Shown: piece by piece, positions 19,155 through 24,987 of the stretch
Layout of the letters: every line of letters begins with the position of its first letter
Numbering within the stretch: position 1 is the first letter of the stretch
Source: Nocardia aurantiaca
Lineage (GTDB): Bacteria; Actinomycetota; Actinomycetes; Mycobacteriales; Mycobacteriaceae
Direction of reading: 5' to 3'
NCBI RefSeq assembly: GCF_009708175.1
Contig: NZ_WMBB01000009.1
Location: 62,001-126,000, forward strand
DNA length: 64,000 bases
Translations under genes and position numbers: made by a program
Notes under the pieces: generated by a model
What the model was told of the DNA's origin: nothing
The model's database searches: none
Seen by the model: the letters and a program-made list of their open reading frames with translations, nothing else

Positions 19155-19784
19155 TCAGGCCTGGCTGAACGACCAGACGGCGGCGGGGCGGCCGGTGGCT
19201 TTGACGCGGACGCGTTCGCCGGTGCGGCCGAGGCCGGGGATGGCGGCAAGGATGCGGTTGAGGTTGCCGGGGTCGGGTCGGGTGCCGTGCAGGGCGGTGG
19301 TGAGGCCCACGGCTCGAGTGGCGGTGAACTGGTCGCCGATCAGCGCCCGCGTGAATGTGAGGTCCTTCCAGAGCATTTCGGCCAGTCGTGTCCGGGCGGC
19401 GGTGATGATCTGGTTGTGGTCGAAGGCCAGAGGCGGGACCGCGTCGAAGGGAACCCAGGTGGCGATATCGCTGTCGTGGTCGCCGACGACGGCCCACATG
19501 GCGATGGACAGGGTCGGCCCGCGCGGGTCGCGGTTGGGTTCGTCGAAGGTGGCGACCTGACCGATGGCGCGGATGGCGTCCTCGGGCACACCGAGTTTGG
19601 TGTGCACCGCGCGGTGGGCGGCCTCGGCGAGGCGTTCGCCGCGGTGGAGCAGCACGCCGGGCAGGGCGAGCTCACCGGCGAACGGCTCCCACTTCCGCGC
19701 GGCGATGCCGAGGGTGGCGGTCGGGTCGTCGGGCCCGGAGCGCAGGGCGATCACATCGATGGATACCGCGGATTGTTGCTCCAC
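19155..19784 (-). CDS. NUDIX-winged-helix regulator (NrtR-like) with degenerate NUDIX box
   Basis: This 209-aa protein joins a NUDIX fold to a C-terminal winged helix, the layout of NrtR, which senses ADP-ribose and represses NAD genes. The NUDIX box reads LPGVLLHRGERL followed by EAAHRAVHTKLG: the RExxEE catalytic core has become RAVHTK, so hydrolysis is unlikely. The C-terminal domain has NLNRILAA, GRTGERV and GRPAAVWSF, matching the wing of NrtR. GTG 19784 starts 10 nt after the stop of the PurA-like gene, so translation is probably coupled. It is the last gene of a four-gene minus-strand unit and the natural candidate for its regulator; a site for it may be the repeat at 23093-23115. Confidence 0.78.
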   Translation of the reverse strand: MEQQSAVSIDVIALRSGPDDPTATLGIAARKWEPFAGELALPGVLLHRGERLAEAAHRAVHTKLGVPEDAIRAIGQVATFDEPNRDPRGPTLSIAMWAVVGDHDSDIATWVPFDAVPPLAFDHNQIITAARTRLAEMLWKDLTFTRALIGDQFTATRAVGLTTALHGTRPDPGNLNRILAAIPGLGRTGERVRVKATGRPAAVWSFSQA

Positions 19785-19794
19785 AAATGGACAA

Positions 19795-21048
19795 TCATGC
19801 CTGAGCCGGGATCCGGATCGTGCGATCGGCTCGGTCCGGGCCGTGCGCGGTGAGCACCACGGGCGCGCCGAGTTCGGTCTCCAGGTAGCGGGGCACGTCG
19901 GCGGGCAGGTCCGCCAGCGCGGGGGTGGCGGCGTCGAGGAGATCGGTGAGCCGCCGCTGGTGATCGAGATCCCGCCAGACCCCGCACTCCAGCCGGTCGA
20001 CATATCCGTCCACGGTGAGATAGCCGGTCGCGCCGCGCAGGCCGCCGACGGCGTCGAGGTGGTTGACGGCCAGCCCGTCGATTCCGCCGCACGCCTCGAC
20101 GGCGTAGCGCAGCAGTACCGGATCGAGGTGTCCGCGTCGGAAAGCGCCCTGATATTCGCCGGTTCCATTGTGCGGCTCCGCGATCGCGAGCGCCGGATCC
20201 TCGGTCGGGAAGGGCCCGGCCCCGTGCCTGGTCATGTACGCGCGGGTCACGCCCAGCACGTAGCCGGGAGCCCCGAGACGCGCCAGCATGGCCCGCGCGT
20301 GCCGGGGTTCGACGGTCGACCACGTGGTGTAGGGGTGGGTGCCGCGCCACTCGTCGAGCAGCACCCCTTGCGCGCCTTCGAAGACGAGCCGGCCCTGGCG
20401 CGCGAAACCGGCGAGCTGTTCGCCCGGAAGCACGGCCACCGCCTCCGCGAACGCGCGGTACGCCTCGACGAGTTCGTCGATCGGGTCATAGCGGTGCCGC
20501 CCGCCCGCGAGCAATGGCGCGTAGTGCTCCTCGAGCGCGATCAGCTTGCGTCGCAGCACCTCCGGCCGTCGGCAGTCGGCGACCCGGGGCGCATCGTGGC
20601 CGAGGGCGTAGCTCGCGGTTTCGCCGATGCCGATGCCGCACGACCCGTGCCGGGCGGTACCCCTCGCATCCTCCCGGCAGCGGTTGGCGGCGCCGTGGAT
20701 CGGCGTGGTGAGCAGGGCCCGCTGGTCCACGGAGAGCAGGGACAGCGGATCGGTGACCCCCAGCGCGGCGAGTTCCCGCGCCTCGGCGGCCAGGGCCAGC
20801 GGCTCCACCAGCATGTGCCGCGACAGCAGGGTCGGCACACCCGAGAGCGTGCCGGACCCGAACTGCCGGAAGGTGTGGTGGCGGCCGTCGGCGATCACGG
20901 TGTGGGCGGCCTGCGCCCCGCCGTTGAACCGCACCACCGCGGCCACGTCCAGACCGGCTCGCGGTGAGCACAGCCAGTCCACGGTCGCGCCCTTGCCGGC
21001 ATCGCCGAAACCCAGGTCCACGACGATCAGGTGACTGTCACCGAACAT
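19795..21048 (-). CDS. Adenylosuccinate synthetase-like protein with altered P-loop
   Basis: A 417-aa full-length member of the PurA family, which joins IMP and aspartate with GTP. The fold is recognisable: FEGAQGVLLDEW plus GTHPYTTWST, RRGHLDPVLLRYAV, and a late LETELGAPV. But the P-loop is GFGDAGKGATVDW instead of WGDEGKGKIVD. The catalytic Asp (about residue 16) and one Lys stay, while the Glu and second Lys are Ala. The guanine-binding TKLD is NHLDAV, and the IMP region is HGSCGIGIGETASY. It is unlikely to be the housekeeping PurA. A different purine, acceptor or signalling role is possible. RBS AGGGA precedes the ATG. It lies between a vWA gene and the NUDIX regulator. Confidence 0.8.
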   Translation of the reverse strand: MFGDSHLIVVDLGFGDAGKGATVDWLCSPRAGLDVAAVVRFNGGAQAAHTVIADGRHHTFRQFGSGTLSGVPTLLSRHMLVEPLALAAEARELAALGVTDPLSLLSVDQRALLTTPIHGAANRCREDARGTARHGSCGIGIGETASYALGHDAPRVADCRRPEVLRRKLIALEEHYAPLLAGGRHRYDPIDELVEAYRAFAEAVAVLPGEQLAGFARQGRLVFEGAQGVLLDEWRGTHPYTTWSTVEPRHARAMLARLGAPGYVLGVTRAYMTRHGAGPFPTEDPALAIAEPHNGTGEYQGAFRRGHLDPVLLRYAVEACGGIDGLAVNHLDAVGGLRGATGYLTVDGYVDRLECGVWRDLDHQRRLTDLLDAATPALADLPADVPRYLETELGAPVVLTAHGPDRADRTIRIPAQA

Positions 21049-21085
21049 GAGGTGTCCCTTCGTCTTCGGTTTCCCGTGCGGCGCG

Positions 21086-22075
21086 TCAGAGATCGACGTC
21101 GTCGGTTCCGGTGGCGGCGGGAAGCGCGCCCACGCTGCGGCCGCGCCGGGCGCCGGCCATCGGAGCGAGGGCCTTGCTCACCGCGTCGGCCTCACTGGTG
21201 GAGCCGATATCGCGCAGATCGGCCAGCCCGGCCCCGAGATCGATGCGGTCCTCTGCGATGCCGATGGTCAGGGCGATGAGCTCGCACACCGCGGCCGGAT
21301 CGTCGAGCCGCAAGAACCGCTCGCCCAGCAGTTCCTGCCAGTGCTCGGCGATCTCCGGATCCCGGTAGTAGCTGGACTGATTGGGCAGGATGTAGTGCAC
21401 GTGCCAGCGGTCGGCCAGCTCCCGGTAGACGGAGTTCACGGTGATGTCCCGGTCGACCTCGTCGCCGATGACGGCGCGAATGTGACGGGCGGCCAGCCGC
21501 TTCTTGTTCAACTCGTCGCCGACGATGAACAGGTAGCCCTTGCGTCCCCGCTTGTCCCACGCATCGGTGACGGTGTGCCTGGCGATGAAATACGCTGCCA
21601 GCTCGTAACTTTCGGACTTCTGCCCGCCACCGCCGCCCTCCAACAGGATGAGCCGCAGCTGTTCGTCCATCCGGTTGTCGGATTCGAACTGCCCGACCTG
21701 CAGTGGCACCCGGTCGCTGTCGGCGTCGCCGATCGCCCCGAACAGGATCTGCGGATCCTCGGCATAGCCCTTGCGCTGCAGCAGTCCGTGCAGTCTGGCC
21801 AGCTTCTCCTGCATGATGCGCGGCACGCTGCCCATGGATCCTGTCACGTCGAACAGCACCGCGATCGGGAGCGAATTCCCGTGGTCGTCGGAGTCTCGCG
21901 ACTCGCGCACGGTCACCCCGAACGGATCCAGGGTGGAATGCGCCTTCCACTGATCCCACGGCACCGACCGCATATCCGCGGTGTAGCCGAAGTCGTCGAG
22001 GCCCTTGGCGGCGCGGAAGGTCCGCGCCGCGTCATAGGCCGTGTCATCCCAGCGTCCGTAACCCATTGCTGTCAC
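21086..22075 (-). CDS. von Willebrand factor A domain protein
   Basis: A 329-aa cytoplasmic protein with a vWA domain from about residue 68 to 270. The MIDAS is intact: DVTGSMG at about 76-82 (DxTxS variant of DxSxS), with a later acidic GDE in LFIVGDELNKKR as probable third ligand. VWA proteins of this kind bind partner proteins through a metal ion and often sit next to AAA+ ATPases, kinases or chaperones in regulatory or conflict systems. No TM segment or signal peptide is seen. Its ATG overlaps the stop of the J-domain pseudokinase gene by 4 bp, which implies co-expression in fixed ratio. The role within the cluster is unknown. Confidence 0.82.
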   Translation of the reverse strand: MTAMGYGRWDDTAYDAARTFRAAKGLDDFGYTADMRSVPWDQWKAHSTLDPFGVTVRESRDSDDHGNSLPIAVLFDVTGSMGSVPRIMQEKLARLHGLLQRKGYAEDPQILFGAIGDADSDRVPLQVGQFESDNRMDEQLRLILLEGGGGGQKSESYELAAYFIARHTVTDAWDKRGRKGYLFIVGDELNKKRLAARHIRAVIGDEVDRDITVNSVYRELADRWHVHYILPNQSSYYRDPEIAEHWQELLGERFLRLDDPAAVCELIALTIGIAEDRIDLGAGLADLRDIGSTSEADAVSKALAPMAGARRGRSVGALPAATGTDDVDL

Positions 22076-23091
22076 TTACCTTTCGTGAGCTCGAAGGGCC
22101 GGAAGCGGCGCTTCCCGTAGAGCCGGTCGAGCAGATCGTCGAATTCCCCGAGCAGGTCCGCGGCATCGGGCCGCAGGCGTGGATCGGATTGCAGGCATCC
22201 GGTGGCGTAGGCCCGCATGGGGGCGGGCGCGCGATCGCCGAGCATGGTGAGCATCAGCCGATGGGCGAGGTGGACATCCGTGGCGGGGGAGACCTCGTCC
22301 CGGATCTCCGGCGGATAGTCGAGGGATTTCAGCGTGGCCGCCGCCGGATTGCCCGGCCGGGTCGCGAAAGACCATCCCGTCAGCACGATTCCGTGCAATC
22401 GCGGATGCACCAGCACATTGGCCGGACTGATGGCCGTGTGCACCCACCCCGCCAGCCGCGCACCGGCCAGGCAGCGCAGCAGCCGGCGATGCATCCAGGC
22501 GTAGTCGCGCGGGTCCAGGCCGTCGGGATAGGCGGCTCGCACGTCCTCGAGCGTCACGAATTCCTCGACGAGCGCGCCGAGCACGTTGACCGTGCGGTGC
22601 TCTCCGGTCGCGGAATCCAGATGATCGACCGTGTCGACGAGTTCCGGGAAGTAGGGCCGCAGCCACTCGTGTTCTTCCGCCACGGCCGCGATGTCGCGCA
22701 GGGCATTCCGTTCTCCGGCCAGCAGCCGATTGGCCGCCGCCCGCCGCGGGATCTTCACGACTCGATCCGATCCGCTGCGGTACACATCGGCGATCGAGCC
22801 GGACGCGTGCAGCGCCCCGACTCTGTACCGTCCGTGCGCCCCGATCACCTCGAAGGCGGGCTCGTCCGGATCCAGCCAGTGCCGGTACAGCTCGGCCAGC
22901 CGCGCGAACGCCGCCCCGGCGATCCCCGCGTCCACGGCCTCCGCCCGATCCGGATGAACGATCCTCGCCAGCCGGTGATACCGCCGCCGCGCGTCCTGCC
23001 GCGCCGTGGAATCCGTTGCGGCAGCGCCGAACAGATCCTCGGGCCGCCGGGCCGCCAGGATATTCTCCGCGGCTTCTCGCGCTGTCGTCAT
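22072..23091 (-). CDS. J-domain protein fused to a degenerate protein-kinase domain
   Basis: A 339-aa two-domain protein. Residues about 10-75 form a DnaJ-like J domain with RYHRLARIVHPDRA, where HPD is at 46-48, so it could recruit DnaK. Residues 85-325 have a kinase fold: a glycine-poor loop ASGSIADVYRSG, the ATP Lys in VVKIP (K113), and a possible alpha-C Glu (E127). HTAISPANVL (218-227) replaces HRDLKPxN, and LTGWS replaces DFG. The catalytic and metal-binding Asp are thus both missing, so it is probably a pseudokinase. The ATG has no Shine-Dalgarno sequence and lies just behind a TAGTCT -10-like element, so the mRNA may be leaderless. It heads the vWA/PurA-like/NUDIX unit. Confidence 0.78.
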   Translation of the reverse strand: MTTAREAAENILAARRPEDLFGAAATDSTARQDARRRYHRLARIVHPDRAEAVDAGIAGAAFARLAELYRHWLDPDEPAFEVIGAHGRYRVGALHASGSIADVYRSGSDRVVKIPRRAAANRLLAGERNALRDIAAVAEEHEWLRPYFPELVDTVDHLDSATGEHRTVNVLGALVEEFVTLEDVRAAYPDGLDPRDYAWMHRRLLRCLAGARLAGWVHTAISPANVLVHPRLHGIVLTGWSFATRPGNPAAATLKSLDYPPEIRDEVSPATDVHLAHRLMLTMLGDRAPAPMRAYATGCLQSDPRLRPDAADLLGEFDDLLDRLYGKRRFRPFELTKGK

Positions 23092-23092
23092 T

Positions 23093-23115
23093 GTTTTAGA
23101 CTAAATGACTAAAAC
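23093..23115 (-). promoter_or_regulatory. AT-rich inverted repeat/promoter of the J-pseudokinase operon
   Basis: GTTTTAG (23093-23099) and CTAAAAC (23109-23115) form a perfect 7-bp inverted repeat around ACTAAATGA; a second small palindrome TTTAGACTAAA overlaps it. On the minus strand TAGTCT lies 6 nt before the A of the ATG and could be the -10. A strongly AT-rich dyad in this GC-rich DNA, overlapping the probable start of transcription, suggests a repressor site. Confidence 0.55.
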
Positions 23116-23186
23116 GGTGCCCGCCAGAGGTTCGGGACAACTTTTTGTAGCTTCGACAAAAAGCCTGTTCGCAACTCGTCCGGCTG

Positions 23187-24338
23187 TCAGCGGCCCGGAT
23201 GCGCCACCCATCCGGCGACAACGGCCAGGCTGGTGGGGCGGTGCACCGCGAGAAAGCCGAAAGGTCGGTCGAAGGTCACCGTGGTGTGCAGCGCGGTGCG
23301 CTCCTTGTGGAGGAATCGCGCGCTGGCGAGGTTCATGGTCATGGCGGTGACCGCGGCGGCGTCGAACCCGTCCTTGGTGAACCGTGCGAACACGTCCTGC
23401 GCGGCCTGGTCGACGTACAGCGGGTGCTCCGACATGCCCGGAAAGTGGCCGCGCGCACTGTCGGTGACCGTTGTCAGGCCGAACAGCGCGGACTGCTCGA
23501 TCAGATCGTGCAGGCAGCGAATCTCGAAGGGCGGCAACGACATCTCCAGGCGGTCGCCCTGTCCGCGATCCTTCACGGCCTTGACGTTCAGTCCGGGCGA
23601 GCGGGTGCCGGCGGGCAGGTGCCCGCGGACCGGGACGGTTCCGGCGAGGGCTTCGAGGCCGGCGGTGAGGACCGCGCCCGGCGTTCCCCTGCCCAGCAGC
23701 AGATGGACGTCGAGATCGCCTGTGCCGCAGACGATCACACGCGTCACCGGATCCGTGGCGTCGAGAATGGTTGCGTCCTGGGGGCGCGACGAAGAGCGCG
23801 TCAACGCGGGGCCGGCATGTCCCCGCCACGGCCCGTCGGTGATCGACATGGTGTCTTCGTGGAACGGGTCGAGCCACGTGGTTCGTGCCGCCAGCGCGGT
23901 GGCGAGCACCATGACCGTCATGCTGTCGACCGGAAGCGGGAACTTCTCGATGAGGCCGCCGGTGTGGCGGTCCGCCCAGGTGTCGAGCGCGGCCTGGTCG
24001 GTGATGGCCTGCACGGTTCCGGCGGGCAGGCTCGTCGACCACTCCCGGCGCAGCGGCAACCCCTGACGAACCCAGATGCCGAGGGCCGCCGACACCGATT
24101 CGGCCTGGGCGAGGGTGTGCAGCAGCTCCAGCGCGCCGGCGTGCGCGTCGGCGGCGGGCAGGCCGGTGGCCGCGGCGAGTTCGGAGCGCCCGGGCTCCTC
24201 GGCGGTGGCGGCCAAGAGCGCCAGCAGCGGCCATGCGCCGCAACCGGATAGGACGAAGTCGCCGGGCCCGGCGGTCGCGCACCAGCGGGCGGTGAGGCGG
24301 TTGGCGGCGTCGATGTGGACGGACAAGGCGGTCGGCAT
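23187..24338 (-). CDS. Serpin-family protein
   Basis: A 383-aa protein with the length and C-terminal signature of serpins, suicide inhibitors of proteases. The closest motif is DRPFGFLAVHRPTSLAVVAG then WVAHP, which matches the serpin end FxADHPFxFxI...GRVxxP. Earlier helices such as FVLSGCGAWPLLALLAATAEEPGRSELAAATG fit the N-terminal helical part of the fold. I see no signal peptide, so it would act in the cytoplasm unless exported by another route. It may have lost inhibitory function, as many bacterial serpins are poorly studied. It lies 95 bp upstream of the J-pseudokinase gene on the same strand and is divergent from the DUF4334 gene. Confidence 0.72.
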   Translation of the reverse strand: MPTALSVHIDAANRLTARWCATAGPGDFVLSGCGAWPLLALLAATAEEPGRSELAAATGLPAADAHAGALELLHTLAQAESVSAALGIWVRQGLPLRREWSTSLPAGTVQAITDQAALDTWADRHTGGLIEKFPLPVDSMTVMVLATALAARTTWLDPFHEDTMSITDGPWRGHAGPALTRSSSRPQDATILDATDPVTRVIVCGTGDLDVHLLLGRGTPGAVLTAGLEALAGTVPVRGHLPAGTRSPGLNVKAVKDRGQGDRLEMSLPPFEIRCLHDLIEQSALFGLTTVTDSARGHFPGMSEHPLYVDQAAQDVFARFTKDGFDAAAVTAMTMNLASARFLHKERTALHTTVTFDRPFGFLAVHRPTSLAVVAGWVAHPGR

Positions 24339-24393
24339 GACGCCAGCCTAGGTGTGGTGTGGGGGATGATCGCGGGATACAGTGAGAGGAAAT

Positions 24394-24987
24394 ATGTCGT
24401 TTGCCCTCACCGAGGAGATGATGATGGTTGCCGCTGACTCGGCGACGGAGGGCGCCGCGCGCCTCGAGGCGTTGATGGCCGCCGGAAGTACGGCCGCGCA
24501 GGCGTGGGAATTGTTCGACAGCCTGCCCGCCGTGCGCGTCGACGAGGTGACAACCGGTCGGTGGCGCGGGGACGAAGTGGGGACCGGACATCCCTGGGAC
24601 AGGCTGCTGGTGGAATCGGGTTGGTACGGGAAGCAATTCGACAGCGCGGACAGTGTGCAGCCGCTGCTGTTCTCCGGACCCGGCGGGGATATCTTTGCCG
24701 TCGATCCACGGCGGGTACCGCTGTTCCTGGCGGGGCACGTGCCGGCGTCGGCGCTGAAGCCGGTGCGGCGCTCGCTCGGCGTGTTGCGCCCGCTCCTGCG
24801 GACCCGTGCGCCGCGGGCGCGGCTACGGAATCTGGAATTCCGTGGAAAGACCAGTGCGGCAATGATCTACGACGATCTGCCGATCATCGATATCTTCCGC
24901 AGGGTCGACGAGAACACGCTACTGGGCGTCATGGATAAGCGCGGGCTGAACGAACCGTACTTCTTCGTGCTGTATCGCGACCGGTAG
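24394..24987 (+). CDS. DUF4334 / GXWXG domain protein
   Basis: This 197-aa protein matches the two-part DUF4334 family. The first half has the GXWXG motif in the form TTGRWRGDE, and the second half has LEFRGKTSAAMIYDDLPIIDIFRRVDENTLLGVMD and a closing PYFFVLYRD, both typical. The family is common in actinobacteria and of unknown function, with a lipocalin-like or beta-barrel fold suggested. The ATG at 24394 has GAGAGGAA directly upstream and is better than GTG 24382. It shares a 55-bp divergent spacer with the serpin gene and is followed after 81 bp by a flavin hydroxylase, which could be a functional partner. Confidence 0.85.
   Translation: MSFALTEEMMMVAADSATEGAARLEALMAAGSTAAQAWELFDSLPAVRVDEVTTGRWRGDEVGTGHPWDRLLVESGWYGKQFDSADSVQPLLFSGPGGDIFAVDPRRVPLFLAGHVPASALKPVRRSLGVLRPLLRTRAPRARLRNLEFRGKTSAAMIYDDLPIIDIFRRVDENTLLGVMDKRGLNEPYFFVLYRDR

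Follow-up and report, generated by a model that had tools for sequence, protein, structure and literature searches.

A Patchily Distributed, Phage-Shared Operon Encoding a PurA-Like Enzyme with Altered Predicted Substrate Sites, a vWA Protein, a J-Domain Pseudokinase and a NUDIX-HTH Regulator

Introduction

Adenylosuccinate synthetase (PurA) has a phage paralogue, PurZ, which joins aspartate to deoxyguanosine monophosphate (dGMP) (PMC12884076; here and below, papers are cited for individual passages). We describe a further PurA-like gene, from Nocardia aurantiaca, which forms one operon with genes for a NUDIX-HTH (helix-turn-helix) protein, a von Willebrand factor type A (vWA) protein and a J-domain pseudokinase. 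The cluster occupies positions 19155–24338 of a 64,000-nt stretch of contig NZ_WMBB01000009.1 (assembly GCF_009708175.1), which is referred to as the window and to which coordinates refer unless another locus is named.

Several described systems resemble parts of this operon. The PurZ and PurZ0 enzymes of 2-aminoadenine DNA are likewise phage-borne PurA paralogues; PurZ uses aspartate, and has partners other than those found here. NrtR repressors of NAD metabolism combine a NUDIX domain, with a degenerate Nudix box, and a winged helix, as does the present regulator, which differs in adjoining this operon, with no NAD gene in it. ARG-centred anti-ADP-ribosylation systems, as outlined in section 3.8 of PMC9503650, also combine an enzyme with a Nudix-HTH regulator and with vWA proteins or further partners of chaperone-like type, whereas the enzyme here is PurA-like, is accompanied by a J-domain pseudokinase and is carried by phages; a Pfam scan of eight window genes revealed no ARG enzyme. 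QatC and Cap9, which are QueC-like, exemplify the reuse of a purine-related biosynthetic enzyme on another substrate in a host–phage setting (passage in PMC13329287). They belong to a different family, and protein modification is only a conjecture for the present cassette. In MoxR-vWA chaperone systems, a vWA co-chaperone acts within a multigene system (passage in PMC7159879), whereas a J domain would supply DnaK here instead, and no MoxR gene was found among the window genes scanned. The parts are of known folds. For the four-gene system as a whole, no described counterpart was found in the open-licence literature searched; a description elsewhere is possible.

Results and Discussion

The four genes run in one direction on the minus strand and constitute one operon, consisting of the J-domain pseudokinase (22072–23091, 339 residues), the vWA protein (21086–22075), the PurA-like enzyme (19795–21048, 417 residues) and the NUDIX-HTH protein (19155–19784, GTG start). 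The pseudokinase and vWA genes overlap by 4 bp, followed by gaps of 37 bp between vWA and PurA-like and 10 bp between PurA-like and NUDIX. The original prediction had described five minus-strand genes with these positions and spacings, the fifth being a serpin gene separated from the pseudokinase gene by 95 bp, and the open reading frames (ORFs) and gaps were recovered as it gave them. The 4-bp overlap hinges on GTG as the vWA start. As the family conserves Met-Gly as its start (residues 4–5 of the vWA protein, invariant in 9 of 9), translation may actually begin at the ATG at 22066, in which case 5 nt would separate the two genes. Pfam thresholds were passed by NUDIX (23.2 bits; cut-off 21.1), PurA (PF00709, 207.3 bits) and serpin (77 bits), while the DnaJ match of the pseudokinase was sub-threshold (16.3 against a cut-off of 27.8), and the Pfam scan of the vWA protein gave no VWA match.

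The vWA protein, which also matches PHROG 2971 of unknown function (E 6e-74), was chosen as the query because it is the most specific part of the set. One scan with it against 84,980 species genomes gave at least 501 confirmed stretches encoding relatives, and the best 80 loci in named genomes, all of them actinobacterial, were analyzed by running the profiles of all four proteins on every ORF. A PurA-like gene was present in 80/80, always within 500 bp of the vWA gene or overlapping a mechanically extended ORF. The NUDIX-HTH gene was found in 79 loci (in 77 of them at most 500 bp from a further gene of the cassette) and the J-domain pseudokinase in 58. The idea that the four genes are a conserved system, which rare co-occurrence in other genomes was to have overturned, is thus borne out in these loci. 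Among eight plasmid loci taken from 21 plasmid records, the profiles detected PurA-like in seven, the pseudokinase in seven and NUDIX in six. Loci from Agrobacterium, Acetobacter, Rhizobium and Rhodovulum have their NUDIX gene upstream in divergent orientation, which indicates that the gene order varies while the set stays. The distances of the vWA and PurA-like proteins were also correlated, with Spearman coefficients of 0.83 (80 bacterial loci) and 0.65 (74 viral loci) that are uncorrected for kinship.

The system is rare and patchily distributed. Matches were obtained in 4 of 296 genomes sampled across the phylum (two strong, one being the window's own genome) and in 38 of 301 genomes of the window's family; in the genus, 12 of 28 other genomes were positive among the matches listed. 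Two local variants were seen. A group of Nocardia loci (L027–L032, L034, L035, L039, L041–L043, L049, L063 and L065) carries vWA, PurA-like and NUDIX genes with the pseudokinase undetected, and many of them share a chromosomal context that contains, as judged by eye, adenine phosphoribosyltransferase and ATP-binding cassette (ABC) ATPase genes. On a Variovorax plasmid (L013, 6762–7964), a kinase-like gene has, again by eye, a cysteine-rich, zinc-finger-like N-terminus replacing the J domain.

The PurA-like enzyme was next compared with canonical PurA. The original prediction held that the system idea would fail if this gene were the only PurA of the organism. This objection was rejected, as the genome separately encodes an ordinary PurA (E 1e-178, against 2e-60 for the cassette protein); exactly one PurA-family match was present in 75 of 80 sampled actinobacterial genomes. 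The cassette protein misses the NCBIfam PurA equivalog cut-off by a wide margin (166.8 against 402 bits). Its identity with PurZ was also tried and rejected, the PurZ model giving 27.5 bits against a cut-off of 300.

For the residue comparison, 183 cassette enzymes (near-duplicates retained) were aligned with 31 canonical PurAs, comprising 30 from other genomes and the window genome's own. Residue numbers are those of this last protein, which we take to equal the E. coli numbering, and the residue roles are those presumed for PurA, except for R303 and the valine near the ribose. The enzyme shares with PurA the family, the GTP loop and the residues D13 (182/183), K16 (182/183), H41 (183/183), Q224 (183/183) and D333 (182–183/183), suggesting that the GTP-phosphorylation half of the PurA reaction is probably kept. 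Other positions have been replaced almost uniformly: N38 by Gln (180/183), T129 by Cys or Val (178/183), K267 by Arg and V273 by His (both 183/183), T300 by Tyr, Trp or Phe (178/183), T301 by Gln (180/183) and K331 by His or Cys (179/183), while R143 is retained by just seven enzymes. The aspartate loop TTGRxR reads (Y/W/F)QG-x-(F/W/L)R in most cassette enzymes and is one residue shorter in all 183, which is aligned as a gap at R303, a residue kept by 31/31 canonical PurAs. As read from this alignment, the residues presumed to form the amine site (T300 and T301) and the site for sugar and phosphate (V273, T129 and R143) are changed alike in bacteria and phages. The protein, identified by PF00709 and this residue signature, thus keeps the GTP and catalytic residues but differs at the aspartate and nucleotide sites, and we take it to be a probable GTP-dependent ligase that acts on other substrates.

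The Pfam family and the retained D13, H41 and Q224 would also fit an ordinary PurA isoenzyme or purine salvage enzyme whose neighbours are unrelated. We consider this very unlikely in view of the separate canonical PurA, the low equivalog score, the replacement of V273 and T301 noted above, and the presence of vWA as a constant partner in bacteria and phages alike.

A more serious alternative is that the enzyme acts as PurZ does and makes an unusual purine nucleotide or deoxynucleotide, with the vWA protein and the pseudokinase only aiding folding or assembly; the product would serve DNA or RNA modification in phages and nucleotide metabolism in bacteria. PurZ itself, as a phage PurA paralogue acting on dGMP, is a precedent. 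According to the structural passage in PMC8342488, R303 balances the 2'-oxygen of inosine monophosphate (IMP) and contacts aspartate, whereas the corresponding residue of PurZ is displaced, a shift that the authors connect with the exclusion of ribonucleotides; R303 is lost here. The invariant His in place of V273, a residue close to the ribose in PurA, would suit another sugar, and many phages carry the set. However, the same passage describes the loop tip touching aspartate as strictly conserved between two PurZs, whereas T300 and T301 are replaced in nearly all cassette enzymes. The PurZ model scores far below its cut-off, and two peptide-handling partners are left unexplained. We therefore regard a free modified nucleotide, and with it this use in phages and bacteria, as a somewhat unlikely outcome that nevertheless stands well ahead of an ordinary isoenzyme.

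Structure models were used to assign the two partners. The AlphaFold2 (AF2) model of the vWA protein has a mean predicted local distance difference test (pLDDT) score of 90.7, and integrin I domains are its nearest neighbours among solved structures (Foldseek E ~1e-6); comparison with integrin beta I domains gave Z scores of 15.2–16.5 and root-mean-square deviations mostly of 2.6–3.5 over ~190 residues. The protein contains metal-ion-dependent adhesion site (MIDAS; DVTGSM) and GDE motifs. D72, G75, S76, D113, D183 and E184 are invariant among 37 sequences, and within the DxTGS of the MIDAS the D, G and S are found in 37/37 and the T in 36/37. The vWA fold with its MIDAS, undetected by Pfam, is thus confirmed by a high-confidence model. 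In section 3.8 of PMC9503650, vWA is called a Mg-dependent peptide-binding chaperone.

The J-domain pseudokinase was likewise modelled with high confidence (pLDDT 92.6), and this model confirms a J fold, with HPD at residues 46–48, and a kinase-like fold at approximately residues 80–325. Its best matches in the PDB include the pseudokinases VRK3 (3e-9) and STK40 as well as a DNAJ-PKA fusion and an active kinase, VRK2. The HPD motif is almost strictly conserved (H and P 49/49, D 48/49), while an HRD-type catalytic Asp occurs in only 2 of 49 proteins and Ala or Gly in 40. The pseudokinase may retain other chemistry.

Both partners are thus of peptide-handling types, the vWA protein by the description just cited, which raises a variant of the proposed reaction in which the enzyme would attach a purine or purine nucleotide to an amine group on a protein that the vWA–pseudokinase pair has caught. 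Such purinylation would be a new protein modification. It could draw on the aspartate loop rebuilt with an aromatic residue and Gln, and on the precedent of QueC relatives in phage defence, of which QatC has been proposed, and Cap9 described, to modify protein N-termini (passage in PMC13329287). The operon shows no evident substrate protein, and we consider the idea improbable. We judge similarly its fuller form, a rather improbable scheme in which coupling at C6 would be driven by GTP, the target would be held by the vWA MIDAS and unfolded by the pseudokinase with DnaK, an ADP-ribose-like nucleotide would induce the bacterial operon, and large phages would use the modification for host takeover or counter-defence.

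The NUDIX-HTH protein is NrtR-like, in keeping with the original prediction. Its profile (216 positions) matched AraR (5bs6) at positions 10–212 (1e-46) and 3gz5, presumably the Shewanella NrtR, at 5–213 (1e-41), both near full length, and NadQ (7q91) at 41–213 (2e-22). The Nudix domain and the C-terminal winged HTH are thereby present as in NrtR proteins. The NCBIfam NtrR equivalog model gave 28.3 bits against a cut-off of 400, so that the protein is a relative and no equivalog. The Nudix core RE..EE.G is lost in the window's protein and in 57 of the 79 regulators of the named-genome loci; a stricter pattern scored 75 of 86 boxes as degenerate and undercounts intact ones. The protein is a probable repressor, for which ADP-ribose would be the ligand by analogy.

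A putative operator was found directly upstream of the first gene. It is a 23-bp palindrome, GTTTTAGTCATTTAGTCTAAAAC, at 23093–23115 on the minus strand, which ends 1 nt before the pseudokinase ATG. It shares the 8-7-8 layout and the GTTTT/AAAAC ends of the MsNrtR palindrome, GTTTTCGA-N7-TCGAAAAC (as given in PMC6800001), and differs from it in the inner half-site. In the 7.38-Mb genome, this palindrome was the sole match to TTTAGTCN5GACTAAA with at most two mismatches; the genome thus has no second site of this pattern. The strict pattern occurs in 23 of the 80 named-genome loci, and related forms lie upstream of the first gene in 37, against 2 matches in 1.28 Mb elsewhere. Both half-sites have changed together in Gordonia and Tessaracoccus. 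A predicted leaderless promoter has its -10 box TAGTCT (23098–23103, minus strand) within the operator. Of the 42 loci with an operator among 82 examined, 37 have a TANNNT at one fixed place within it, and 29 have a start codon at most 12 nt downstream, which suggests a leaderless promoter that a repressor could cover. These patterns were chosen after the sequences had been viewed, and the counts describe rather than test them. A simple palindrome scan revealed no clear operator form in the Amycolatopsis, Micromonosporaceae, Streptomycetaceae-type and proteobacterial loci. A weaker operator-like palindrome, CTTTTTGTCGAAGCTACAAAAAG, is seen in the sequence at 23141–23163 (minus strand), although it might serve as the serpin gene's terminator; several Nocardia loci have an element resembling it at about -70.

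In phages, the enzyme and its helpers occur mostly without the regulator. Among 50,697 phage records, 208 contain relatives of the vWA protein; 190 of these are mycobacteriophages, 10 are Rhizobium phages, 6 are Vibrio phages and 2 are others. Relatives of the pseudokinase were found in 190 records, every one a mycobacteriophage. The PurA-like profile matched 227 records, 206 in the mycobacteriophage, Rhizobium and Vibrio groups and 21 others; each of the three proteins matches 190 mycobacteriophage records. Phages bearing the cassette include LRRHood, RHph_TM61 and phiKT1024. The gene order was inspected in four phages. That of LRRHood, gp253 (pseudokinase), gp254 (vWA), gp255 and gp256 (PurA-like), is colinear with the window, and that of Grungle is similar. 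In the Rhizobium and Vibrio phages, vWA is followed by PurA-like, with no pseudokinase within the 18.8 kb examined. The phage records shown label these genes as PurA-like (or 2-aminooxy) adenylosuccinate synthetase, serine/threonine kinase or hypothetical protein. A gene list of Vi01-like phages contains a putative adenylosuccinate synthase and a putative von Willebrand type A gene, which may be related to the cassette (passage in PMC10892097).

Viral contigs gave a similar picture. Among the best 80 of 270 contigs found by vWA, PurA-like was present in 77 (61 within 500 bp), the pseudokinase in 57 and NUDIX in two. In the reverse test, the PurA-like profile alone was run on viral contigs, and of 80 loci kept from 570, 76 had vWA in the fetched stretch and 29 the pseudokinase. 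When these loci were sorted by simple patterns, vWA was present in 60 of the 63 whose pocket signature was complete, in 14 of the 15 in which it was partial and in 2 of 2 others. On an unrooted FastTree tree of the vWA protein with long branches (114 chosen rows), bacterial rows stand among viral ones with at least four forced changes of the viral label, without giving the direction of gene movement. Two IMG/VR contigs (L175 and L166) encode vWA proteins identical or nearly so to that of the Variovorax plasmid, so that some contigs called viral may be plasmids. The idea of a system in the original prediction has held as to the conserved set, while neither the carriage by phages nor the changed substrate sites had been foreseen.

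Further features were observed in individual phages. The vWA gene of Grungle, a C1 mycobacteriophage (L311, 1507–3288), contains a putative intein just before the conserved GDE motif; it begins with Cys and ends with Ser-Ser-Asn ahead of a Cys, and the record notes an HNH endonuclease. Inteins tend to occupy functional sites. Other records with a split match may be similar. According to the record annotations, NADAR and TROVE genes lie near the cassette of a Vibrio phage (L009, 7201–7845 and 13566–15074), and phosphoribosyltransferase-like and nicotinamide mononucleotide (NMN) adenylyltransferase/NUDIX genes near that of a Rhizobium phage (L008, 4603–6269).

A role in anti-phage defence through a self-harming product would agree with the patchy distribution (12 of 28 other genomes of the genus among the matches listed), with the occurrence on plasmids and with the resemblance of the NUDIX-HTH and vWA pair to the predicted ARG-centred systems of PMC9503650 (section 3.8). 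Against it, phages themselves carry the enzyme and helpers, and PADLOC gave no match save weak kinase matches of the pseudokinase. We consider such a role quite improbable, more so than purinylation. A known defence system was rejected on the same search, in which four of the five proteins had no match and the pseudokinase only weak kinase ones (best E 1.9e-6, 24.5 bits).

The explanation we tentatively favour, while granting it somewhat less than an even chance, is a patchy, phage-shared operon for a PurA-derived, GTP-dependent ligase of changed specificity with two chaperone-type partners and its own ADP-ribose-type switch. The operon probably makes a product not yet known. For its inducer, substrate and role, we propose the following. 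The NUDIX-HTH protein would be an NrtR-type repressor dedicated to this operon; it would cover the -10 box of the leaderless promoter and be released by an ADP-ribose-like nucleotide. With GTP, the PurA-like enzyme would, like PurA, phosphorylate a purine substrate at its 6-oxygen and would join the activated purine to an amine other than free aspartate. The vWA protein, binding peptides through its MIDAS, and the pseudokinase, recruiting DnaK, would together capture a protein and remodel it; this protein would be either the PurA-like enzyme or the substrate of that enzyme. The product would aid the cell or the infecting phage under nucleotide or NAD stress or conflict, phages retaining the enzyme and helpers mostly without the switch. 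We favour a use to cell and phage alike because the enzyme and helpers are retained in phages, whereas the switch is almost confined to bacteria.

Several observations weigh against this explanation. The 80 named-genome loci are not independent because many are close kin. The profile search left the pseudokinase undetected in 22 of the 80 bacterial and 23 of the 80 viral loci. Neighbour clustering, in which the ORFs around 89 loci grouped as bacterial (including the Rhizobium phage L008) and 83 viral loci were compared, gave no hint of a substrate; no family occurred in more than 17 of the 89 or 5 of the 83 loci, and the larger families resembled, by eye, generic ABC and short-chain dehydrogenase paralogues or the shared chromosomal context of one Nocardia group; genes of nucleotide metabolism may be among the neighbours. 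In the enzyme, 26 of 183 sequences have a Lys or Arg elsewhere in the shortened loop, between G302 and R306, and the loss of R303 may reflect a deoxynucleotide and not another amine, since the equivalent residue is also displaced in the aspartate-using PurZ. The R303 passage on PurZ thus takes weight from the favoured ligase and adds it to the free nucleotide. As for the switch, the Nudix core is retained in 22 of 79 regulators, so that some may also hydrolyse. The searched operator forms are absent upstream in 43 of the 80 loci. A reversed control of the operator pattern gave 2 matches per strand; the lone match in the genome may therefore be due to chance, and the weight rests on conservation.

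Two neighbouring genes are not counted with the operon. The original prediction had listed the serpin (23187–24338, minus strand) as a possible member. It is better regarded as a neighbour, as just 2 of the 80 named-genome loci have serpin-like ORFs (L018 and, as a fragment, L023) and the operator separates the serpin gene from the operon. Nocardia niigatensis has a strong serpin homologue at the matching place (L018, 5725–6873). A gene with GXWXG and DUF4334 Pfam domains (24382–24987) is a divergent neighbour.

Conclusions

PurA is a textbook enzyme, and a sister lineage of it stands beside a vWA protein in hundreds of bacterial and viral sequences (at least 501 stretches; 208 phage records). 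In this lineage, the catalytic residues are kept while both predicted substrate sites appear to have changed alike, and the enzyme is linked with a peptide-binding domain and, in many cases, with a J-domain pseudokinase. This pattern points to an undescribed reaction product in host–phage biology. As the parts are small and are found in harmless laboratory organisms, among them Rhodococcus and phages of M. smegmatis, the substrate, the inducer and the phage phenotype are directly testable.

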